DNA from: a virus
Reading direction: 5' to 3' (one strand)
Length of the DNA: 41,580 bases
Virus record (IMG/VR): IMGVR_UViG_3300035438_001307
Coordinates: 1 to 41,580 of that record
The translations under genes were made by a program, and so were the position numbers. Shown in pieces: positions 4,825-41,580 of the stretch. How positions within the stretch are numbered: the first letter of the stretch is position 1; each line of letters opens with the position of its first letter. The notes beneath the pieces are model-generated. The model did no database searches. It saw nothing but the letters and a program-made list of their open reading frames with translations, and was not told the DNA's origin.

Positions 4825-4858
4825 AAAAGCCCACCACGGAATTCCGTGGTGGGCTTTT
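4825..4858. terminator. Perfect 34-bp palindrome, bidirectional terminator
   Basis: Bases 4825-4858 read the same on both strands: AAAAGCCCACCACGGAA and its reverse complement. The hairpin would have a 17-bp arm with AATT at the centre and runs of A and T on both sides, so it can terminate on either strand. It lies between the portal stop (4868) and the protease start (4796). A 24-bp part of it recurs inside gene 13862-15994. Confidence 0.8.
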
Positions 4859-13861: not shown

Positions 13862-15994
13862 TCAGGCAGCCTCCACCTGCTTCACGGCCCGCTGCAGCTT
13901 CAGCCTGCGCGCATCCCAGGCCTTGCGCTCCGGTGCCTCTTTGGCAGGCGTCTTGCCGATGATGTCCGCCATCTTGTGCGTGCCCACCACCAAGGCCCCG
14001 ACCTGCTCCTCGAAGCTCATTTCAGCCGGTGCCTGGTCATCGATCAATTCATCACAAATCGAGGCCGCCAGATCGTATGAGATCAGCAGCGCATCCGCCA
14101 CCGCCGCTACACCGCAGCCCGGATTCTCAGCGCGCCATTCTGTGATCGTCCGCTTGATCTCCGCCCGCTGATCCTGAAGTGCTGCTGAAGCGTCGAGCTG
14201 CGCAGCGAGTTGCTCACCTTGCTCACCGATCCATTCATCCAGGGAACGCGGACCATTCTTAAACTCTGAGTCCGCCATCTCAGTCACCACCTCCGCAGGC
14301 TGCACTGGCGGCTCTTCCTTCTTCACCTTCTTGCCCGCATCCAGCAGCGCGGCCGCGCGTCTCTCCAGCTCCACATCCTTCACGCCAAAGCGCGTCTTGA
14401 GCTCAGCAAAATCTTCGCCCTTCGAGCCCGAGTATTTGATGTGCTTGCACAGCAGCGCCGCCGTCAGGTAACCCATCCAGGCAGCCTGCGTTGTCGCTCT
14501 TGCCCGCACATGGGTCAGGATCGCGTCCTCATAATCGCGCTCACAGCTCACCGTGCCCTTGGGCATCTTCACATCCAGCCACAGGCGCATCGACCGCATG
14601 CCATCCGCGCCGCTTTGCTCCAGGGCGATCTGGAACAGGTAGTCCAGATCCTCCAGCCCCATGCCGCGACGCTCGATCGCTGCGACCAGATCGCTCAGTC
14701 CTTCATTCACCATGTGCTGCTCGATCTTCTGCGCACGGATTTCCTTGGCTCGGCGCTCCTTCTCGATGTCGGCCGCCTCATTGGCATCCTTGATCTCCGC
14801 GTCCGCATCCCGGCCATGTAGCTGCGCCTTCGCAATGATGATGGCCTGCTTCTTTTCCACCAGCTCGATGCGCTGACCACTCACCGGATGGCGGGCCAGC
14901 ACCACATCGATGTCCACGCCTTTCAGCAGTTGCTTCCACGTCTTCTTGTTCTCATAGGCGATCTGGCCCAGCTCACTGTATTCAGGCTTGGCAGACAGGT
15001 CCACATAGCCAGCATCATGAGTCAGAGACCCCCGATAGCCCTTGAAAATCTCCCTCGCACCATCGCCCTCGATGACTCGCGTGTTCTGCGCTTCCGCCGC
15101 ACCGCGCAGGATCTTCCACGCCGCGTCCTGCTTCTTCCGGTGGCATGCAGGCAATGTGCAGAGCGCATGAGTGCCCGTGCCGCGTGATCCCGCCACGGAA
15201 TTCCGTGGTGGGCTTTCTGAGTTGCTCGCATCGGTCAGATACGGGCAGTCCAGGCAGCTCCCGCCCATCAGCCGCTCACCCGTGATCTCATCATGCACCA
15301 CCGGCAGCAGCTCGGCGGCCTCGATGTCGAATCCCGGCTTTTGCAGGCTCACCATGAAGTGCTCCCGCACCATCTCGCGGGTCTGCTCATAGTTCAGCGG
15401 CACCTCCTGGATCTCCGGCGTCAGCACCTTACGGGCCGCCGCCTCACGCAGCTTGGCATCAGGGATGCGGCCCACCAGCATGGCCGTGCTCAGCGCCACC
15501 TCACCCGACTCCACCGCATTCACCAGGGACTCAGGGCAGAGCAGCAGCTTCAGCCGGTCGGCGATGTGGCTGATCGATTTCCCGATCTTTGCCGCCAGCG
15601 TCGCCTGCGTGTAGCACGGCAGGCCCGCAGCATCCCGCAGGTCCAGCACCTTGCGGTAACCTCGCGCCTCTTCCCGCACCGTCAGATCCTCACGCTGCAG
15701 GTTCTCGATCAGCACGATCTCCTGCGCAGCGCCATCATCCAGATCATGCACGATCACCGGCACGCGCTCCAGCCCTGCCAGCTTCGCCGCCCGCAGTCTC
15801 CGCTCACCCGCCACCAACTCCAGCCGCTCAGGATCTCGGGGGCTGCTGCGTGCTGTCAGTGGCTGGATGATGCCATGCTCACGCACACTGCTCGCCAGTT
15901 CCTCCAGCGTTTCAGGGGCAAAATTCTCGCGCACTTGGTAAGGGCTCGGATCGATCAGGGTGACAGGGCAGTGGGTGACTTCGATTGCTTTCAT
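13862..15994 (-). CDS. ParB/Srx-domain protein with HTH and Cys cluster
   Basis: A 710-residue protein. Residues 10-105 are a ParB N-terminal domain (E-L-V-A-G-E-R-R-L-R-A-A-K at 59-71; IENLQRED at 96-103). Residues 105-180 hold the DNA-binding HTH (LAAKIGKSISHIADRLKLL). Residues 247-284 contain four cysteines (247, 250, 279, 284) like a zinc site. A long helical charged C-terminal half follows. There is no ParA beside it. In phages such proteins regulate transcription or partition DNA. Residues 259-272 are encoded by a palindromic repeat set between the two Cys pairs, an in-frame insertion. Confidence 0.85.
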   Translation of the reverse strand: MKAIEVTHCPVTLIDPSPYQVRENFAPETLEELASSVREHGIIQPLTARSSPRDPERLELVAGERRLRAAKLAGLERVPVIVHDLDDGAAQEIVLIENLQREDLTVREEARGYRKVLDLRDAAGLPCYTQATLAAKIGKSISHIADRLKLLLCPESLVNAVESGEVALSTAMLVGRIPDAKLREAAARKVLTPEIQEVPLNYEQTREMVREHFMVSLQKPGFDIEAAELLPVVHDEITGERLMGGSCLDCPYLTDASNSESPPRNSVAGSRGTGTHALCTLPACHRKKQDAAWKILRGAAEAQNTRVIEGDGAREIFKGYRGSLTHDAGYVDLSAKPEYSELGQIAYENKKTWKQLLKGVDIDVVLARHPVSGQRIELVEKKQAIIIAKAQLHGRDADAEIKDANEAADIEKERRAKEIRAQKIEQHMVNEGLSDLVAAIERRGMGLEDLDYLFQIALEQSGADGMRSMRLWLDVKMPKGTVSCERDYEDAILTHVRARATTQAAWMGYLTAALLCKHIKYSGSKGEDFAELKTRFGVKDVELERRAAALLDAGKKVKKEEPPVQPAEVVTEMADSEFKNGPRSLDEWIGEQGEQLAAQLDASAALQDQRAEIKRTITEWRAENPGCGVAAVADALLISYDLAASICDELIDDQAPAEMSFEEQVGALVVGTHKMADIIGKTPAKEAPERKAWDARRLKLQRAVKQVEAA
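15193..15216. repeat. Palindromic element inserted in the ParB-like gene
   Basis: CCACGGAATTCCGTGG (15193-15208) plus TGGGCTTT match 24 bases of the terminator palindrome at 4825-4858 in the same orientation. The reading frame stays open and the element supplies residues between Cys250 and Cys279 of the protein. Confidence 0.75.
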
Positions 15995-23388: not shown

Positions 23389-24627
23389 TCACAGCCCGAG
23401 CGCAAACCACGCGGCACCATCCTCAGCACGCAGAGGCCTGCGGTATTTCCGCCGCACCTCGCTCTCTGAGTTGCCCGCCCACTCCGCCACCTGCCCGTGG
23501 CCATGCCCTTCCGCCAGTCGATAGCTGATGTAGCTGTGCCGCATCACATCCGGCGTCCACTCCTCAATGATCCCATGCCTGCGAGCCAGCGCTGATAGAT
23601 GCATCGCATCATCCGTCCCGCAACACACCGCCTCGTGGCGACCGCGCGTCTTGGTCTTCTGGCGCGGATCATGCATCACCCCGCCTAACAATGAACGCAC
23701 ATTGTCAGGGATCGGCACAAACCGATGCTGCATCACCTTTGCCGCCACCTCTGGTGAAACATCCACATAACCACGCAGCCAATCCCACGCAGCCGGCCGC
23801 AGCCGCTGGATCTCCGTGGGCCGCAGGCCCAGCCAGCATCCGATCACCAGGTAATTCAGCAGAGCCGGGGCCTCACTCCGCACCGCTGCCAGCAACTGCT
23901 CCGCCTGGTGCACCGTGAAAATCTGCGGGATACGATCCGCCTCCCGTTTCCGCTCCAAAAGCTCACCCGGATGCTTCTCACCCCGCGGCCACAGATTCCA
24001 TGAGCGACACCGATTCAGAAACGTGCGCCACACATTGAGCCGGTTATTGTGCGTCCGCGCCTCCACCGCGTCACCATCACCCTTGGCGCGCGATACCCAG
24101 GCGGCCAGCATGTCATTGGTCAGGTCACTGACCGCCAGCGTCCCGTAGGTCTTGCAGAACAGGTCCAGCTCCTTCCGCAGCGTCGACGTCGTCTCCTTGT
24201 CCCGCGTCTCATAGCTATCGAGAAACCGCACCCGCGCCGTCTGCATCGTCACGCGCTCCACCCGCGCCATGCCCGAGGCCTCGTAATGTCGCAGCGCCCG
24301 GCTCAGCACCTCCACCCCGCCCAGCCTGGCCTGCGCATCCTCCAGCTCCTCGAGCAGCACAAACGGCGACCGCTCACCCGCCACCCGACGCATTCGCTGC
24401 ACTAGCTGCGCATCCTCCACCGTCATCAGCCGGCCACCCTGACCACCCGCCAGCTCGCGCACCTTCCGCGCCGCGAAATCCAGCGCATCCTTCTTCGCCA
24501 CCTTCGTCGTCGACCGACCCCGTCCCGCCTCCCTCCAGCGCACCACCCACAGCCCATTCCCACGCATCTTCACCAGCGCCCGCGCGCCACCATACTTCAC
24601 CTCAATGCTCCCATTTTCCGCCTCCAT
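23389..24627 (-). CDS. int: Tyrosine recombinase integrase
   Basis: A 412-residue phage integrase. The N-terminal 130 residues include a DNA-arm-binding-like domain and the SAM-like core-binding domain (KTYGTLAVSDLTNDMLAAWV region, 159-178). Catalytic residues in the C-terminal half: Arg269 in G-L-R-P-T-E, Arg363-His364 in V-M-R-H-S, and Tyr395 in R-R-K-Y-R; the usual first His of HxxR is Asp360, as in many verrucomicrobial enzymes. It recombines attP with a tRNA-linked attB. The gene starts right beside attP (24628 onward), the usual phage arrangement. Confidence 0.95.
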   Translation of the reverse strand: MEAENGSIEVKYGGARALVKMRGNGLWVVRWREAGRGRSTTKVAKKDALDFAARKVRELAGGQGGRLMTVEDAQLVQRMRRVAGERSPFVLLEELEDAQARLGGVEVLSRALRHYEASGMARVERVTMQTARVRFLDSYETRDKETTSTLRKELDLFCKTYGTLAVSDLTNDMLAAWVSRAKGDGDAVEARTHNNRLNVWRTFLNRCRSWNLWPRGEKHPGELLERKREADRIPQIFTVHQAEQLLAAVRSEAPALLNYLVIGCWLGLRPTEIQRLRPAAWDWLRGYVDVSPEVAAKVMQHRFVPIPDNVRSLLGGVMHDPRQKTKTRGRHEAVCCGTDDAMHLSALARRHGIIEEWTPDVMRHSYISYRLAEGHGHGQVAEWAGNSESEVRRKYRRPLRAEDGAAWFALGL

Positions 24628-26857: not shown

Positions 26858-27585
26858 GAGTCAGGTAATGCGCCAGTTGGAGCGGTGAAGTCGGCGGTGT
26901 AACGGCCAACACCTTTAGTCACTCGGACCTCATCAACCTTGCTGGTGAGATAGGCTGAGCCGATGGTATCATATCCTATTTTCCACGTGGTTGTGCACGT
27001 GAAACTGGTGCTCGATGTGAGCGTTGAGCCGCTCTGCACGCCATCGACAAAACATTTCAGCGCGCTGCCGCTGCGGCTGATTGCTACGTGGTGCCATGCG
27101 TCGTTCGTGATCGTGCCGAACGTGGTTATGCCTCCCGCTGTGCTATACCAAACGATGGTGTTTGAGTAGTGGTAAAGGCCATAAGTCCCGCTGCCAAAAA
27201 TGGTCTTATAACTGCCGCTGCTGGTCGTGAGATAGACCCAAGCTTCCAGGGTGAAGTCTCCCGCAAACTCAAAGTCAGCGCTGCTTGGCGTGTCGATGTA
27301 ATCGCCAGTGCCATCCAGCAGGAGCGCCGCGCTACCGTATTTGGGCGAAGTGGTGGTCAGTTGCGCGTTGCCATAAAATGTCATGGCCCGCGCCGATGAA
27401 CTGGAGTCGGTGGCGCTGGTCGCCCCGTTGCTGCCATCGAGGTGCAGCAGGAGTTTGACGCTGGAGAAATATGGATCGCCACCACCGCCCGCGACGACGA
27501 AACGAAACGGGTTGATGATGAAGCCCAACGCCGGACAAGCCGCAGCAAGCCAGACGATCGCGACGATGTGAGAAAGCGTTTTCAT
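26854..27585 (-). CDS. Secreted LamG/concanavalin-like lectin, tail region
   Basis: A 243-residue protein. Residues 1-21 (MKTLSHIVAIVWLAAACPAL) look like a signal peptide. Residues 45-235 are a LamG-3/concanavalin fold: K-L-L-L-H-L-D-G-S, G-D-F-T-L-E-A-W-V-Y-L, D-A-W-H-H-V-A-I-S-R and K-V-D-E-V-R-V-T-K-G are its standard strands. Such lectin domains bind sugars. The start at 27585 forms ATGA with the upstream stop. Receptor binding at the host surface or coating of released virions is plausible; the signal peptide is unusual for a virion protein. Confidence 0.75.
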   Translation of the reverse strand: MKTLSHIVAIVWLAAACPALGFIINPFRFVVAGGGGDPYFSSVKLLLHLDGSNGATSATDSSSSARAMTFYGNAQLTTTSPKYGSAALLLDGTGDYIDTPSSADFEFAGDFTLEAWVYLTTSSGSYKTIFGSGTYGLYHYSNTIVWYSTAGGITTFGTITNDAWHHVAISRSGSALKCFVDGVQSGSTLTSSTSFTCTTTWKIGYDTIGSAYLTSKVDEVRVTKGVGRYTADFTAPTGALPDS

Positions 27586-29828
27586 CGGGTGCCAATGATC
27601 CAAACTTTGACGCCTTCACCGGTGTTGTCCGTCGTCGTGCCGACTTGATCAATGAATAGCTCGATCAGCGCATCATCAGCGAGCGCGGTGTCAGTGAGTG
27701 TGTGAGCCGTGGCAGCAGTGGTGCTGGTTGTTTCACTCGCATCCACTGACAGTTTGTTAGTCGTCATCACCGTGGTGCCAGATTCGTGCAGGTCCACGAT
27801 GACGATTGCTCCCGTCGAGGCTTTGGTCAGGCTGCATCGCAGGCTGGTGATCGTCATCGCGAAGGGCATGCGAAAGGTCACCTTCGGCACCGTGCTGCTG
27901 GCGGTGTTGTCGCTGGTTTCGTCGGAGAGGGCAATGCCGATCTCGACTTTGGTTGCGCTAACCAAACGTGTGTCACTTCCCTGCACCGCAACACTGGCAG
28001 CAGTCTCGCCATCCGTGGCAAGCTCGACGCTGCCGCGTGCGGAGGTCGTTGCGGCAGCGACGGCGGTGCCGGTGAGTGATCCATCGGCGAGGTCGGTGAG
28101 GTCAGCGTCGAGCGGCTGATAGCTACTGGCTGCAGTGGCGCTGAGCAGGTAGTCGGTGATGGTGGCGCTTTGGGTGGCGAGGGTGCCGAGGCCGAGCGTG
28201 GTGCGCTGAGCAGCAGCATCAGCGTCATCGAGCAAAGCGCGGCCCGCCGTGGTGGTGGTCAGGGCAGCGATGCTGGTAAGGTCACTGTCGAGCGGCTGGT
28301 AGCTGCTGGCGGCGGTGGCGCTGAGCAGATAGTCGGTGATGGTGGCGCTCTGGGTGGCGAGGGTTCCGAGGCCGAGCGTGGTGCGCTGAGCGGCGGCATC
28401 AGCGTCATCGAGCAAGGCGCGGCCTGCGTTGGTGGTGGTCAATGCAGCGATGCTGGTGAGGTCGGAGTCGAGCGGCTGGTAGGTGCTCGATGCGGTAGCG
28501 CTGAGCAGGTAGTCGGTGATGGTGGCGCTCTGGGTGGCGAGGGTGCCGAGGCCGGTGATCTGGCCAGCCGTGATGCCGGTCAGCGATGCGCCGCTGCCAG
28601 TCGTGGTGAGGATCACACCGGTGCCGGACTCGTCCGACAAGACACCATTGATCTGCGCTGAGGTGGTGGCAGCGAATTGGGCCAGAGTGCCACTGGTGAG
28701 TGCGTCACCACCACCGCTGATGGTCTGCCAGGTATTGTCGCCGCGCAGATATTTGGTGGTGATGGCTGAGCCACTGCCGAGTCGTGCAGCGGCGACGGTG
28801 CCAGAGGTGATGTTGTCGGCGTTAAGATTGGTGAGACTGGCACCACTGCCGGACGTGGTGAGAATAGTGCCAGCCACACTGCCTCCCGCCAGATCAGCGG
28901 TCCCCATCGTGAGTGATCCACCTGCGATGGTGGAGATGCTGCCTGCGTTCTGTCCAGGCGTGCCATACATATTCAGACTGCCACCGTTGCCACCGTGCTG
29001 GCCGTCAGCATCGGCACCTTGCAGCAACAAAGAGCCACCAAGACCTCCATGCCAAGGGGCTGCATTGGCACCACCGAAAAAGCGCACCATGCCATCTGAG
29101 TATCGAGCGACTCCAGCGACACGGCCTTGAATATCACCGTCCGCCACCATTTGCCCAGTAAACGATGGTGAAGCCAGCGGGGCATAGGTGCTGGCGGCGG
29201 TGGCACTGGTGAGGTATGCGCTCAATTCCTGGTCCCCTGTATTTGTGCCGGATGAGGTGCCGCTGAACGTGCCGCTCTGTGTAGCGAGGGTGCCGAGGCC
29301 GAGCGTGGTGCGCTGGGCTGCGGCATCGGCATCATCGAGCAGGGCGCGGCCTGCGGTGGTGGTGGTCAGTGCAGCAATGCTGGTGAGGTCGGAGTCGAGC
29401 GGCTGGTAGGTGCTGGCTGCACTAGCGGTGGTCAGATAGTCAGTGATGGTGGCGCTCTGGGTGGCGAGGGTGCCGAGGCCCGTGATCTGGCCAGCCGTGA
29501 TGCCGGTGAGAGATGCCCCGCTGCCAGTGGTGGTGAGGATCAAGCCGGTGCCGGACTCGTCGCTGAGCACACCGCGCAGCTGCGCGGAGGTGGTCGCTGC
29601 GAATTGGCTGAGGGGATCACTGATCAGGGCATCACCGGTGCCTGCGCCAACACCTCCAACACTGATCATAGCAGGCACGCCTGCCGTGAATCCGATGGCC
29701 TTGCCATTCTCGGCCGTGATGCCGTAAGAGGTGAAGCCAGATGACGTGCGCTTGCGCAGCTCGAACTGGCCGACGGTCTGTGCGCAGGCGGTGCTGACGA
29801 GGAAGATGGAGAGGAGGATGTGACGCAT
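27582..29828 (-). CDS. Tail fibre with 60-residue repeats and signal peptide
   Basis: A 748-residue protein. Residues 1-17 (MRHILLSIFLVSTACAQ) are a Sec signal peptide, unusual for a phage fibre. The middle contains several 60-residue repeats (core T-L-A-T-Q-S-A-T-I-T-D-Y-L and D-L-T-S-I-A-A-L-T-T) and Gly-rich turns, forming a trimeric shaft. The C-terminal 120 residues form a receptor-binding-type head (T-F-R-M-P-F-A-M-T-I, I-V-D-L-H-E-S-G-T, ending K-V-W-I-I-G-T-R). It follows gene 29831-30391 by 2 bp. The domain plan fits a side-tail fibre. Confidence 0.85.
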   Translation of the reverse strand: MRHILLSIFLVSTACAQTVGQFELRKRTSSGFTSYGITAENGKAIGFTAGVPAMISVGGVGAGTGDALISDPLSQFAATTSAQLRGVLSDESGTGLILTTTGSGASLTGITAGQITGLGTLATQSATITDYLTTASAASTYQPLDSDLTSIAALTTTTAGRALLDDADAAAQRTTLGLGTLATQSGTFSGTSSGTNTGDQELSAYLTSATAASTYAPLASPSFTGQMVADGDIQGRVAGVARYSDGMVRFFGGANAAPWHGGLGGSLLLQGADADGQHGGNGGSLNMYGTPGQNAGSISTIAGGSLTMGTADLAGGSVAGTILTTSGSGASLTNLNADNITSGTVAAARLGSGSAITTKYLRGDNTWQTISGGGDALTSGTLAQFAATTSAQINGVLSDESGTGVILTTTGSGASLTGITAGQITGLGTLATQSATITDYLLSATASSTYQPLDSDLTSIAALTTTNAGRALLDDADAAAQRTTLGLGTLATQSATITDYLLSATAASSYQPLDSDLTSIAALTTTTAGRALLDDADAAAQRTTLGLGTLATQSATITDYLLSATAASSYQPLDADLTDLADGSLTGTAVAAATTSARGSVELATDGETAASVAVQGSDTRLVSATKVEIGIALSDETSDNTASSTVPKVTFRMPFAMTITSLRCSLTKASTGAIVIVDLHESGTTVMTTNKLSVDASETTSTTAATAHTLTDTALADDALIELFIDQVGTTTDNTGEGVKVWIIGTR
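28090..28560. repeat. 180-bp direct repeats in the fibre gene
   Basis: The phrase AGTCGGTGATGGTGGCGCT starts at 28151, 28331 and 28511, exactly 180 bp (60 codons) apart, and again near 29435. The unit encodes one shaft repeat, so copy number can change the fibre length without breaking the frame. Confidence 0.9.
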
Positions 29829-32162: not shown

Positions 32163-32189
32163 GGAGATGGAGTGTTGGAGTGGTGGAGT
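32163..32189. repeat. CCACTCCA repeats before the collagen-like gene
   Basis: Two to three imperfect copies of the 8-bp unit (CACTCCA, CCACTCCA, ACACTCCA) lie between the stop of gene 32195-33136 and the start at 32157. Confidence 0.8.
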
Positions 32190-32194
32190 GATGG

Positions 32195-34466: not shown

Positions 34467-36208
34467 GAGCCAGTGAGTGCGGAGAGGATCTGAGGCAGGA
34501 TCTGCGAGACGATCTGCGCGGCCTGCTCGGAGGGATTGGCAGCAGGAGTGGCGGCGGCGGCGGCGGTCTTGCCAGCAGCGACGGCGACGCCACCAGCGCC
34601 TGCTTCGGCGTTCTTGCGGGTCTGGTCGTCGAGGCCGGGATGGAACATGTCAGTGCGGCCCTGGACACGATCGCGGGCATCTGCGACGCGCTGTTCGGCA
34701 CGGGAGCGGGCATCGCCGCGATCGCCCTGCTTATCGGCGGAATAACCTTTGATCTGACTGCGGCCATCCTCACGCTTGCCATCGTCATTGTAGCGGCTGT
34801 TGGAGAGTTTCTTTTGCAGCTTGTCTTCGGCATCGACACGCTCGTTGGCTTTCTTGAGAGCGTCCTCTTCGGAGAGGCCTGCTTCCTCGACGAGGCTGTT
34901 GACGATCTTCTGAACGGAGGCTCGGCGCTCGAGTTCCTCGGTCAGCTTTTTATCACCGGCGAGCTTGGCGTTGATGAGGTCCATCTCATCATTGAAGCCA
35001 CCGAGAGCCTTGTCTTTTCCGGCTTGTTCCTCGGCGGCTTTCTTGGCTTCATCGGCGGCTTTCTTATCCTGATCGGCCATCTCTTTTTTAGCGTCGCGCT
35101 GCTGACTGCCAAGGGCGATGAGCTTCTCTTCCAGCTTGATGCGAGCCGCCTCCATGCCGGGGCCTTGGATCTCCCGCTCGGCTTCGAGCTTGAGCTGCTC
35201 ACGCTTGAGCTCGATGAGCTTCAAGTTCGGCGGCAGGATGGAGAGGTAATCCTGAAAGCGTTTCTCGGTGAGACCGGCCTCGGCATCGCTGAGCTTATTG
35301 AGCTCCTGCTGAGTCTTCACCTGCTCTTTCAGGGCGGCTTCAGTCGCAGCAATAGCACGAGTCTTAGCAAGCTCATCTGCAACAACATCCCGCTTTTTTT
35401 GATTCTCACCAACTTTTTTATCTGCCTCAATTCCTGCTTCTTTCAGGTTTGTGCCAAGAGGATTACCCTTCCATAAATCATTGATCTCCATCAATGTTTT
35501 ACCAAGAAAATTAGAGGCCGTCCCTTTCTGCCGCGACATGAATGAATCAATCTCATCATTCAGCGCAGCCATCGCCATCACAGCTTCCTGCCCCACGGGG
35601 ATAGCATCTGCGAAGGTCTCCTTCAGCGTCTTGCCAGACTGCTCAAGCATCGGGATCAGATCACCCGCCGACTTGCCGAGCAGCGTTAACAAATCATTGT
35701 AACCCATACCTTCAGCCCGCGTTTTCTGGAAGGCTTCTGCGAGGGTGATGATCTTCTGATCGAGAGGGAGGCGGGCGAGGCTTTCGGCGCTGACGCCGTA
35801 GTGGGCGAGGGCATCGCCAGCGGCTTTGTTTTCCACATCTCCGAGCGCTTTTTCGAGCTTGAGAAAGTTGGTCGTGATGCCGTTCAAATCTACCCCAGCG
35901 AGGATCTTGCTGGCGTGCTCGACGCGCTGAAGGGTCTCGACGGATTCATTGAGACGCAGAGCGGTGTCAGCGAGGTCGTCCATCTCGTTGAGCACGCTGC
36001 GGACACCACCGACGATGGCAGCGGCACCCAGGGCAGGCAGGAGGGCACCAAGCTCGGTGCGCAGGCCGCCGAAGAGATTCTTGCCAAGGCCGGCACTTTC
36101 AGTCTTGGCGTGCTCTTTGAGCTTGGAGATCTCGCCACGGGCCTTGGCCATGGATTGCTGGTATTGGGCGATCTCCAGCCGGAGTGAGGCTTCGATGTTG
36201 GCGGACAT
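34463..36208 (-). CDS. Tape measure protein
   Basis: A 581-residue protein. The N-terminus has two basic helices, then a hydrophobic region (L-G-A-L-L-P-A-L-G-A-A-A-I-V-G-G-V) and long coiled-coil helices (LNKLSDAEAGL, KEMADQDKKAADEAKKAA). The C-terminal 60 residues are Ala-rich, ending in a hydrophobic patch. At about 0.15 nm per residue the tail would be roughly 85-90 nm. It sets tail length and is coated by the chaperones encoded just upstream. Standard position after the frameshift cassette. Confidence 0.85.
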   Translation of the reverse strand: MSANIEASLRLEIAQYQQSMAKARGEISKLKEHAKTESAGLGKNLFGGLRTELGALLPALGAAAIVGGVRSVLNEMDDLADTALRLNESVETLQRVEHASKILAGVDLNGITTNFLKLEKALGDVENKAAGDALAHYGVSAESLARLPLDQKIITLAEAFQKTRAEGMGYNDLLTLLGKSAGDLIPMLEQSGKTLKETFADAIPVGQEAVMAMAALNDEIDSFMSRQKGTASNFLGKTLMEINDLWKGNPLGTNLKEAGIEADKKVGENQKKRDVVADELAKTRAIAATEAALKEQVKTQQELNKLSDAEAGLTEKRFQDYLSILPPNLKLIELKREQLKLEAEREIQGPGMEAARIKLEEKLIALGSQQRDAKKEMADQDKKAADEAKKAAEEQAGKDKALGGFNDEMDLINAKLAGDKKLTEELERRASVQKIVNSLVEEAGLSEEDALKKANERVDAEDKLQKKLSNSRYNDDGKREDGRSQIKGYSADKQGDRGDARSRAEQRVADARDRVQGRTDMFHPGLDDQTRKNAEAGAGGVAVAAGKTAAAAATPAANPSEQAAQIVSQILPQILSALTGS

Positions 36209-36209
36209 G

Positions 36210-36983
36210 TCAGGAGGCTTTCAGGCCGGTCTCGCGGGCGAGGCGTTTCATGTAATCGTCCCAGCCGCGCTGGAGGGCTCCGGTGCGGACTTTCATGGCA
36301 AAGTTAATCTGAGCTTGCAGGCCCTTGATGGCCTTGGCGTAGCTGGTCAGGTTGACCATGCGGATGTCGATGCGCTGCTCGTCCGCTGTGACCTTGAGCA
36401 TACCAGGGCCACTGCCTTTGGCGATGCCATAGGGCAGCTTGGCACCGAGGTCCAACAAGGCGTCTTTCCATCCGCCTGCCAGATACCAGACATGCTGCTG
36501 GGCGTTGGTGATGGCGGTCTTGATGAGTGCGGCGTCCTGCACATAAAAGAGCACCTCACGCTTGCGCTGCTTGCCACGGAACTGGTTGGCGGCTTTGCCA
36601 CCATCGAACGGAGAGAAGGACTTGCCGAGATCGGCGCGCAGGATGGCATTGGCAGCGGCGAGCTTGTCATTCTTGAAGTCGGACCAGAAGGCATCCGCAC
36701 GATCCTGACCACTGGCTTTTTTCAGGTCGTCGTAAGCGCTGGAGGGCGTGCCATAGATGTTGTGGTAATCACGGACGATGGCGAGCTTGCCGGCCTTTTC
36801 GGCGGCCTTGCCTGCGAGTGTGTTGCCGGACTTGCCACCGGCAGGCGGGGTGACCTTAGCGACCTCGACAAAGAGCAGCTTGGCCTGCTGCCGCATCACC
36901 TCGACCGCACCACGCTTGCTGGAGCTGATGAGCCGGACGAGGGCGGCATCAAACTCGGCGGACTGGATGACAAGGTCGGACAT
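36210..36983 (-). CDS. Minor tail or head-tail completion protein
   Basis: A 257-residue protein. The first 60 residues (FDAALVRLISSSKRGAVEVM, then L-F-V-E-V-A-K-V-T-P-P-A-G-G) follow the pattern of HK97 gp10/lambda Z-like tail completion proteins, where a helix leads into a loop and a Pro-Pro-Gly turn. The rest is mixed helix and strand. I start at 36983; a TTGACA box lies 32 nt upstream. It sits directly after the frameshifted chaperone and before the tape measure. The family call is tentative. Confidence 0.5.
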   Translation of the reverse strand: MSDLVIQSAEFDAALVRLISSSKRGAVEVMRQQAKLLFVEVAKVTPPAGGKSGNTLAGKAAEKAGKLAIVRDYHNIYGTPSSAYDDLKKASGQDRADAFWSDFKNDKLAAANAILRADLGKSFSPFDGGKAANQFRGKQRKREVLFYVQDAALIKTAITNAQQHVWYLAGGWKDALLDLGAKLPYGIAKGSGPGMLKVTADEQRIDIRMVNLTSYAKAIKGLQAQINFAMKVRTGALQRGWDDYMKRLARETGLKAS

Positions 36984-37015: not shown

Positions 37016-37021
37016 TGTCAA
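37016..37021 (-). promoter_or_regulatory. TTGACA box before the minor tail gene
   Basis: TTGACA on the minus strand, 32 nt before the ATG at 36983. Its TGA is the stop codon of the frameshift extension. The gap is longer than the 13-16 nt seen elsewhere. Confidence 0.35.
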
Positions 37022-37275
37022 AGATCAATGAGGTGCTCGATGCCGGAGGTGCGCCAGGAGGCGAGCTTGTCACGGACGCGGAGCATGGTCTGCCCGGCGG
37101 TGCTGAGGCGTGGATCAGGCCAGACGTAGAGGGAGCCGGAGAGGATGCCACTGGCATGCAGCAGGGAGTGCGCCCAGGTCAGGGACACGGTCCACATGAG
37201 ATCATGCAGGGAAGTGCCGGGAAGTGCCCGTGCCAGCAGCGCGTAGAACTCGGCGCTGCGCACGGGCAGGGCTAG
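37018..37275 (-). CDS. Tail assembly chaperone extension (gpGT -1 frame)
   Basis: The -1 frame downstream of the slippery site. Reading directly from the heptamer gives L-A-L-P-V-R-S-A-E-F with no stop, so the joined product has 287 residues (202 plus 85). The extension is rich in helices (LHDLMWTVSLTWAHSLLHAS) and carries a W-P-D-P-R motif. Without frameshifting this frame has only a poor GTG start at 37263. In lambda the gpGT extension binds the tape measure, and the relative amounts of gpG and gpGT matter for tail length. Confidence 0.85.
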   Translation of the reverse strand, partial: LALPVRSAEFYALLARALPGTSLHDLMWTVSLTWAHSLLHASGILSGSLYVWPDPRLSTAGQTMLRVRDKLASWRTSGIEHLIDL

Positions 37276-37281
37276 TTTTTT
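37225..37281 (-). promoter_or_regulatory. Programmed -1 frameshift signal
   Basis: Slippery heptamer A-AAA-AAC at 37275-37281, in the right frame, directly before the stop TAG (37272-37274). A 6-nt spacer leads to a long stem-loop: TGCCCGTGC+GCAGCG (37268-37254) pairs with CGCTGC+GCACGGGCA (37241-37225) with a TG bulge and a 12-nt loop, 15 bp in all. Heptamer, spacer and stem are all in the classical arrangement. Confidence 0.9.
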
Positions 37282-37880
37282 GTGATGCCCTGACCTCCAC
37301 GGCGCGGCTGATGCATGGCGAGCACGGACTCATGCTGGGTGCTGATCTGGTGAGCGGTGAGGCAGGCGCGGGCGTAGTCAGCGGGGGCGATGTTCTCTGC
37401 GGACCAGGCGGCGATGGCGGAGAAAAAGCGGGTGATCTGAGTGCCACGCAGATGGTTAAACTCATGCGGCTCATGGGCGGCGAGGAAGAGGATCTTCTCG
37501 GCATCCGGCAGATAAGCGGTGAGGTCGACATACGCGGACAGCTCGGAGGTGCTGAGGCCATCAGTCTTGGCGATCAAGGCCTGCATGCGGACGAGCTCAG
37601 CGAGTGGTCTGGATGGCACATCGGCTGCGATGAGGCGGGCAGCGAGGGTGTGGCGCTCATGCGACCAGGGATGTAGAGGCAGGTCACCGAAGGCAGGCTC
37701 GGCGCTGAGATCCCATGCGGTGCTGCGGACAAGCTCGGCAGCGGACTGGAAATCATGCAGGGCGGGTGAATCGGCTGACTGTGGGACAGCGGCGGGCGGC
37801 GGGGTGAAGGGGATGATGTTATCCTCAGCAGGCGGTGCCAGGGCGAGCGGTGGAGCGGGAGGCGGGGTTTTCTTTTTCAT
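37272..37880 (-). CDS. Tail assembly chaperone (gpG-like)
   Basis: A 202-residue protein that would coat the tape measure. The first 40 residues are basic and Pro-rich (MKKKTPPPAPPLALAPPAE); the rest is helical (LVRMQALIAKTDGLSTSELS, F-F-S-A-I-A-A-W-S-A-E). It ends G-I-T-K-N at a TAG that is exactly behind the slippery site A-AAA-AAC. The position before the tape measure and the frameshift identify it as the gpG counterpart. Overlaps the preceding gene by 4 bp. Confidence 0.85.
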   Translation of the reverse strand: MKKKTPPPAPPLALAPPAEDNIIPFTPPPAAVPQSADSPALHDFQSAAELVRSTAWDLSAEPAFGDLPLHPWSHERHTLAARLIAADVPSRPLAELVRMQALIAKTDGLSTSELSAYVDLTAYLPDAEKILFLAAHEPHEFNHLRGTQITRFFSAIAAWSAENIAPADYARACLTAHQISTQHESVLAMHQPRRGGQGITKN

Positions 37881-38820: not shown

Positions 38821-39279
38821 TCAGGACAGCAGCGTGATCTGATCCTTGGCCACGGACGGGAAGTAACGCATGCCGAGGGTGCAGCTTGGAGCGGCTTCAC
38901 CAAGCTCAGTCTTGGCGGACTCGATCATGAGCAGCTTGTCAGCATCACGCGTGTAGCCGTGGCGGGCGATGGCACCACTGTCAGCAGCGGCGAAATGCGC
39001 GCAGGTGGTGACGCTGGTGCCGACGTAGCTGGCAGGCAGGCCATGCACCAGGCCGTTGGCATCAGGGACGACGCCGCCTTTGATCTCGATGGCCAGTGTG
39101 CCGCGCCAGACCTGCACTTGCAGCACCTGACCGAGGGCTCCGGCGGTGTGGCCTTTCTTTTGCTTCACTTCTTGTTCGGGCGTGAAGCTGACGCTTTCCG
39201 TGAGCAGGCCGGTCTCGGCAAACTCACGACGATCATACGGGCTCAGTGGGCCGAATACTTGGACGGGATCAAATGGCAT
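38821..39279 (-). CDS. Major tail (tube) protein candidate
   Basis: A 152-residue protein. The strand pattern (LQVQVWRGTLAIEIKGGV), a charged loop near E-V-K-Q-K-K, and the C-terminal C-T-L-G-M-R-Y-F-P segment fit a tail tube protein. In lambda-like genomes the tube gene precedes the tail chaperones, and this is the candidate closest to that place. The length is smaller than lambda gpV (246), nearer to the smaller tubes of other siphophages. The gene does not overlap its neighbours, consistent with strong, separate expression. Confidence 0.55.
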   Translation of the reverse strand: MPFDPVQVFGPLSPYDRREFAETGLLTESVSFTPEQEVKQKKGHTAGALGQVLQVQVWRGTLAIEIKGGVVPDANGLVHGLPASYVGTSVTTCAHFAAADSGAIARHGYTRDADKLLMIESAKTELGEAAPSCTLGMRYFPSVAKDQITLLS

Positions 39280-39321: not shown

Positions 39322-39792
39322 CTAAGACGAAGCACCAGCCGCGTGACCACGAGCGCGGAAAGCGGCGGTGGTGGTGGTCTTGGCGACCATGAGGACGGTG
39401 CCAAACCAGCCAGTGGTGATGTCCGCACTCGGTGCAATGCCGCCTGCGGTGGCACTGGCGACATAGACCGGAGTGGCCATGACCAAGGTGAAGCCGGGCG
39501 TGAAGTTGGGGTCTTCCGTGCAGATCAGCGCAGGCTGACCAGAGGCACCACCGTTGATAGCGATGCCAGCGATGAGGGTCTTGCCACTGACATTCACGTC
39601 GGCCAGGTAATAGCGGGCATCGGTGCTGGACTGATACACCACCTGACCGGCGGTGATGGTCTCACCAAAGGTGCCAGGCACAACGGTGGCGGCATCACTG
39701 ACGCGCACGCTGGTCGCGGTGACGGAGACGTCGGCCGCAAAGGTGGCGATGGCAAAGACAAAGAGGAGGAGGATTTGGAGGAGGGACTTCAT
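39322..39792 (-). CDS. Secreted protein in the tail module
   Basis: A 156-residue protein. Residues 1-19 (MKSLLQILLLFVFAIATFA) are a classic signal peptide with an A-x-A cleavage site. The rest is beta-rich and Thr/Ser/Gly-rich (DVSVTATSVRVSDAATVV, then G-E-T-I-T-A-G-Q-V-V-Y). It sits in the head-tail connection region. A TTGACA box precedes it by 29 nt, of which 16 nt are two CCACTCCA repeats. A secreted virion-associated or periplasmic factor is suggested. Confidence 0.65.
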   Translation of the reverse strand: MKSLLQILLLFVFAIATFAADVSVTATSVRVSDAATVVPGTFGETITAGQVVYQSSTDARYYLADVNVSGKTLIAGIAINGGASGQPALICTEDPNFTPGFTLVMATPVYVASATAGGIAPSADITTGWFGTVLMVAKTTTTAAFRARGHAAGASS

Positions 39793-39815
39793 GGAGTGGT
39801 GGAGTGGTGGAGTGG
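39793..39815. repeat. CCACTCCA repeats between TTGACA and a start codon
   Basis: Three CCACTCC(A) units lie between the TTGACA box (39822-39827) and the ATG at 39792. Removing two whole units leaves a 13-nt gap, the spacing found at other genes. Confidence 0.85.
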
Positions 39816-39821
39816 CGGAGA

Positions 39822-41400: not shown

Positions 41401-41580
41401 TTAAGCCTTGCTGCGTGTGCGTCGAGCAGGGGCAGGTGATGGCGGGGCATCGTTGGTCAGCGTGCATGTGCCAGGGGCAGCGGTGCGGCCAAGCTGACAA
41501 GCGGTGACGATGACCTGGTCATTCACCTGCAAGTCCACCGTGCCATCGGCATGCGTCTCAGCGATGACACAAGGCAGCGG
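41401..41580 (-). CDS. Small head/head-tail region protein, 3' part (spans the circle junction)
   Basis: The C-terminal 59 residues of the 72-residue protein that starts at 166. The stop TAA is at 41401-41403 and the tail reads R-R-T-R-S-K-A. Bases 41454-41580 repeat positions 1-127, so this copy overlaps the left one. A hairpin terminator follows the gene. Confidence 0.75.
   Translation of the reverse strand, partial: PLPCVIAETHADGTVDLQVNDQVIVTACQLGRTAAPGTCTLTNDAPPSPAPARRTRSKA
41454..41580. repeat. Terminal direct repeat, right copy
   Basis: Identical to positions 1-127. Removing this copy and joining base 41453 to base 1 gives the circle. Confidence 0.93.

Follow-up and report, generated by a model that had tools for sequence, protein, structure and literature searches.

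The putative tail assembly chaperone locus of the viral record IMGVR_UViG_3300035438_001307 very probably relies on programmed −1 frameshifting of the kind known from G/GT of phage lambda. The window, that is, the whole stretch of 41,580 nt analysed here, carries on its minus strand an ORF (G) with the 3' end ACA AAA AAC TAG, in which an in-phase A_AAA_AAC heptamer is followed by a hairpin and by a −1 frame domain (T) conserved as a protein. The lambda G/GT mechanism is already known; the lineage, an exchange of heptamer letters that preserves slipperiness, and relatives in which the two frames are fused are new. The comparison supports lambda-style recoding in a poorly studied phage group and adds a T domain that would be lost with ORF callers.

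Layout of the cassette and its genome setting

The features of the cassette and the neighbouring genes are listed in Table 1. The coordinates agree with the preliminary description, in which a 202-residue frame ended at TAG directly after an in-phase A-AAA-AAC and the −1 frame was open for 85 codons from the heptamer. For the hairpin, the 6-nt spacer, the 9-bp arm and the TG bulge given there were retained, while the proposed 9 + 6 bp with a 12-nt loop was replaced by the MFE structure of 9 + 7 bp with a 10-nt loop, a difference of one closing pair. Past the slip, the −1 frame of the window reads AAA AAA CTA GCC CTG, and removing T would leave a 288-nt gap inside a tightly packed gene module. 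The start at 37157 of a 315-aa ORF, a longer version of the 257-aa gene downstream of T, is probably spurious.

Table 1. Positions of the cassette elements and of neighbouring genes in the window
Feature	Position	Strand	Basis or remark
G, putative tail assembly chaperone ORF	37272..37880	−	202 codons, ends ...ITKN-TAG
Slippery heptamer A_AAA_AAC, phase X_XXY_YYZ	37275..37281	−	sequence; G_GGA_AAC at homologous position in relatives
Zero-frame stop TAG abutting heptamer	37272..37274	−	sequence; TAG likewise in L010, L020, L022, L025, L028
T, −1 frame domain, predicted G-T fusion product only	37018..37281	−	85 codons past heptamer, TGA at 37018
Candidate stimulatory hairpin	37225..37268	−	9 bp + 7 bp, 2-nt UG bulge on 3' side, 10-nt loop, 6-nt spacer
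SD-like GGAGG	37294..37298	−	13 nt upstream of heptamer; E. coli range 6–17 nt; weak evidence
Conserved 257-aa gene, directly downstream of T	36210..36983	−	ATG at 36983; 61% identical to L003; syntenic anchor
Tape measure protein gene, 581 aa	34463..36208	−	phrog_9483 tail length tape measure protein, E 8.8e-11
Candidate major tail (tube) protein	38821..39279	−	position only; homolog in L003

In the proposed mechanism, most ribosomes would read G to TAG and release gpG, while a minority would pause at the hairpin, possibly aided by the upstream GGAGG. With AAA in the P site and AAC in the A site, both tRNAs would slip back by one base and pair with AAA and AAA, after which the shifted ribosomes would translate T and yield gpGT. 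If the two parts act as in lambda, G would serve to coat the tape measure protein and T to recruit tail tube subunits, and the G:GT ratio would therefore be important for tail assembly. The gpG:gpGT ratio in lambda is about 30:1, and G/GT frameshifting is widely conserved among long-tailed dsDNA phages (PMC5009743).

A single gene separates the G/T pair from the tape measure gene downstream, and a putative tail gene, identified by position, flanks the pair on its upstream side. The structural genes, on the minus strand, comprise a gpA-type terminase, a lambda-type portal, a ClpP-type head protease and tail genes extending across the record ends. With its 127-bp exact direct terminal repeat (1–127 and 41454–41580), the record probably represents an entire, circularly closed genome of about 41.45 kb. 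The host probably belongs to the Verrucomicrobia (Verrucomicrobiota). The name tail chaperone, used for G in the preliminary description, fits the gene order and the split architecture, from which we infer this putative role; in Pfam and PHROG, G and T of the window and of the relatives found no family at useful E-values. The predicted structure of G (pLDDT 52) had no PDB match, Foldseek with this low-confidence model being uninformative, as was the AlphaFold model of the candidate tail tube protein (pLDDT 28). A split or fused terminase was also considered for this genome and rejected, as the extra N-terminal stretch of an 883-aa ORF is an overlapping upstream gene that the relatives read in another frame.

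Several other features of the genome were recorded. A weak phage integrase match at 24627–23389 (minus strand; PF00589, E 1.5e-4, below the curated cut-off) hints at a temperate phage. Tandem repeats of 180 bp (28095–29560) lie downstream of the tail genes in a 748-aa ORF (27582–29828, minus strand), perhaps a repetitive tail or adhesin protein. Near-identical palindromic 28-mers (CCCACCACGGAATTCCGTGGTGGGCTTT) at 4830–4857 and 15189–15216 are probably intrinsic terminators.

Slip site and T domain in close relatives

Relatives were reached using the protease, the terminase and the 257-aa downstream gene as queries or anchors; neither G nor the 286-aa upstream gene gave a match when searched directly in IMG/VR. 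The protease (59% identical) led to the first relative, L003 from IMG/VR, in which the join reads GCG GGA AAC TCG, placing G_GGA_AAC at the heptamer position of the window, followed by a two-part hairpin. The terminase and the 257-aa gene then yielded G003 (L010), G008/G009 (L020/L021) and a Verrucomicrobiaceae MAG contig (L022), and a family-wide search brought in L025 and L028. As L010 and L022, and likewise L020 and L021, are nearly identical in T, the relatives were counted as five lineages.

All five lineages (L003, L010/L022, L020/L021, L025/L040 and L028/L044) carry G_GGA_AAC at the heptamer codon of the window and a hairpin after it, and keep both frames as proteins. The zero-frame stop of L003 lies 6 codons past the heptamer, unlike the immediate TAG of the window. 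The window heptamer differs by three substitutions (GGG to AAA) and is still a legal X_XXY_YYZ site. In the tree of the 257-aa protein, the window groups with L003, L020 and L022 (a 100/99 clade), so that its A_AAA_AAC would most simply be derived from G_GGA_AAC. An alignment of chaperone genes in related phages had been proposed in the preliminary description as a check on a programmed −1 frameshift, and this reading is borne out: both frames are conserved, and all close split relatives have retained a heptamer at this one codon, with its letters changed.

The same comparison bears on two other sources of the frame change. An assembly error or a decayed gene might be suspected, as a single record spans the stretch and a 98% identical contig (L002) stops before it; however, independent contigs, a MAG and other genomes are split at the same codon, each with a legal heptamer and with intact and conserved frames, so that this source appears disfavoured and extremely improbable. 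Transcriptional slippage on the six consecutive A of the window would alter the frame of the mRNA itself. Six A are short for efficient bacterial transcriptional slippage, and this explanation, to which we give hardly any credence, was rejected since the close relatives all have GGGAAAC and lack any run longer than three.

T is conserved as a protein, with identities to the window of 42.5% in L003 (E 1.8e-16), 49% in L010/L022 and 42% in L020. G of the window and of L003 is 26% identical (E 3e-7), the G and T frames of L003 differing by −1, and homologs of G were also detected in L020, L022, L025 and L028 by tblastn/HMM. In the alignment of T from the window and the relatives, an invariant K-L-A-L-P opens T right at the slip. 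Over all pairs, the differences in the first 20 codons of T number 52, 52 and 99 (each of 200) at codon positions 1, 2 and 3, respectively, and this concentration at third positions is the pattern expected of a translated frame. The open −1 frame was rejected as evidence in itself, because at least 85 open codons are found at 27% of the minus-strand positions of this GC-rich genome; the coding status of T is proven by its conservation as a protein and not by the openness of its frame.

As an alternative, T could be an independent gene that has its own start codon or is reached by re-initiation behind the TAG, the heptamer then being accidental. The window offers a GTG at 37263, 18 nt from the start of the heptamer, and L025 has GTG at the same place. 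In L003, however, the first T start codon is found only at 102 nt past the heptamer and in L020 at 57 nt, yet the conserved T begins at the heptamer with K-L-A-L-P; moreover, none of the close split relatives has lost the heptamer, although its letters differ. Because L003 lacks such a start codon and the T frame of L025 is closed 3 nt before the heptamer, the whole T would require a shift, and no separate start suffices. A separately initiated T is accordingly very unlikely, and under the programmed −1 frameshift T is predicted from the sequences to be made only as a G-T fusion.

Short pyrimidine-rich repeats were noticed in the window and in some relatives. Tandem arrays of CCACTCCA occur on the minus strand of the window at 198–249, 32166–32194 and 39792–39820 (0 expected by shuffling), and two of the three end no more than about 10 nt from a likely start codon. 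L003 carries another such repeat, CTCCGTTNYCTCCGTTNTCTCCTGT, in five copies (6513, 9007, 12345, 13208 and 14321), at least two of them just upstream of genes, and CATTCCTC-like repeats are found near genes in L010, L020 and L022.

Chance expectation, hairpin strength and efficiency

An in-phase A_AAA_AAC is found once in about 9,020 codons (26 ORFs scanned), and when the codons of G were shuffled, 0.8% of trials had an in-phase motif among the last 10 codons. The 26 ORFs contain two in-phase motifs of the form X_XXA_AAZ or X_XXT_TTZ, the heptamer of G being one of them. The second, A_AAA_AAG at 35399–35393 (minus strand), lies inside the tape measure gene, 309 codons before its stop.

The hairpin is stronger than coding demands. 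Its MFE is −33.2 kcal/mol (z −3.0 against dinucleotide shuffles), and against synonymous recoding of T, which was judged the right null, it was more stable than 500 of 500 recodings (z −3.96). Its 6-nt spacer falls within the range of 4–10 nt after the heptamer used in the test. In the same recoding test, z was −1.5 to −3.1 in the close relatives and −0.26 on average in fused homologs. The SD-like GGAGG, overlooked in the preliminary description, is weak evidence because such an element is found in only 1 of 5 close relatives; it occurs at 7 of 13 other split sites, and by chance the GGAGG core falls in range at 1.8% of minus-strand positions.

The suggestion that A-AAA-AAC may make the shift efficient is doubtful, as in a systematic E. 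coli survey this heptamer, good in eukaryotes, was inefficient in E. coli, where the best bacterial slip motifs end in AAG (X_XXA_AAG) (PMC4066793). On account of this inefficiency, we read the strong hairpin as probably compensating for the weak heptamer, and the GGAGG perhaps contributes too.

Sites of the form A_AAA_AAC are known from eukaryotic retroviruses, the same heptamer there serving unrelated genes. A proven bacterial case is the frameshift of IS elements of cluster A_AAA_AAC_1, also in unrelated genes; it is without an established stimulator, whereas the window has a strong hairpin after the heptamer (PMC4066793). As in lambda G/GT (G_GGA_AAG), the −1 shift lies near the end of the chaperone ORF, the T domain would occur only as a fusion, and the tape measure gene follows shortly after the pair; both genomes also have a terminase module of the gpA type and a protease module of the ClpP type. 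The window differs from lambda by A_AAA_AAC, the strong hairpin 6 nt downstream, the TAG right after the heptamer, an extra gene that separates T from the tape measure gene, and the lack of detectable sequence similarity of G and T to named chaperone families; the G_GGA_AAC of the relatives is one letter off the lambda heptamer. As with the chaperone frameshifts of dsDNA phages (Xu, Hendrix and Duda 2004; SEA-PHAGES, annotated in 2397 of 3679 genomes, PMC10885494), the architecture is conserved despite diverged sequence. These lists, as consulted here, do not name Verrucomicrobiota, the probable host group here, and, unlike the phages listed there, several relatives of the window carry a fused single-frame version.

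Wider Verrucomicrobiales set and frame-fused relatives

A wider set was obtained by an order-wide search with the 257-aa protein, followed by a scan of the upstream DNA. In eight more distant loci, an in-phase heptamer was accompanied by a stop close by and by a continuation resembling T, the heptamer being G_GGA_AAC in L046 and L052, C_CCA_AAC in L047, L048 and L051, and G_GGA_AAG in L049, L053 and L060; as the scan targeted cassettes, this count gives no estimate of their frequency. When the T profiles of the window group and the wider group were compared, the match was not significant (E 0.095, probability <1%), so that the homology of the two T groups is argued from synteny and layout only.

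Hairpin strength differed with the heptamer: in a small and phylogenetically clumped sample, the three G_GGA_AAG loci showed no excess (z −0.9 to 0.1), whereas the AAC loci ranged from −1.0 to −4.0. This contrast agrees with the hairpin acting as compensation for a weak heptamer.

In four more distant loci of the same order (L039, L041, L042 and L043, the last listed as the reverse complement of L039), G and T upstream of the 257-aa gene are joined in a single frame and their junction lacks a slip site; the shift is therefore not indispensable across the whole group. L043 and the split L048 are close in T, and the stretch from a GCR codon to a GAG-CC, both of which they share, differs by one nucleotide (18 against 17), by which the frames are joined or split. 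On the tree of the 257-aa protein, three changes are needed to account for fusion, and well-supported branches force at least two of these.

Tentatively, the chaperone frameshift of Verrucomicrobiales phages might thus be evolutionarily labile, with changing slip letters, hairpins accompanying AAC but not AAG sites, and at least two fused branches. If so, the G:GT ratio, held essential in lambda, would be dispensable or set otherwise in the fused branches. Among the relatives, the heptamer is swapped, the hairpin is present or absent and the frames are in some cases fused, a natural series that makes two questions testable, namely the compensation of weak A-site codons by hairpins and the existence of tails without free gpG.
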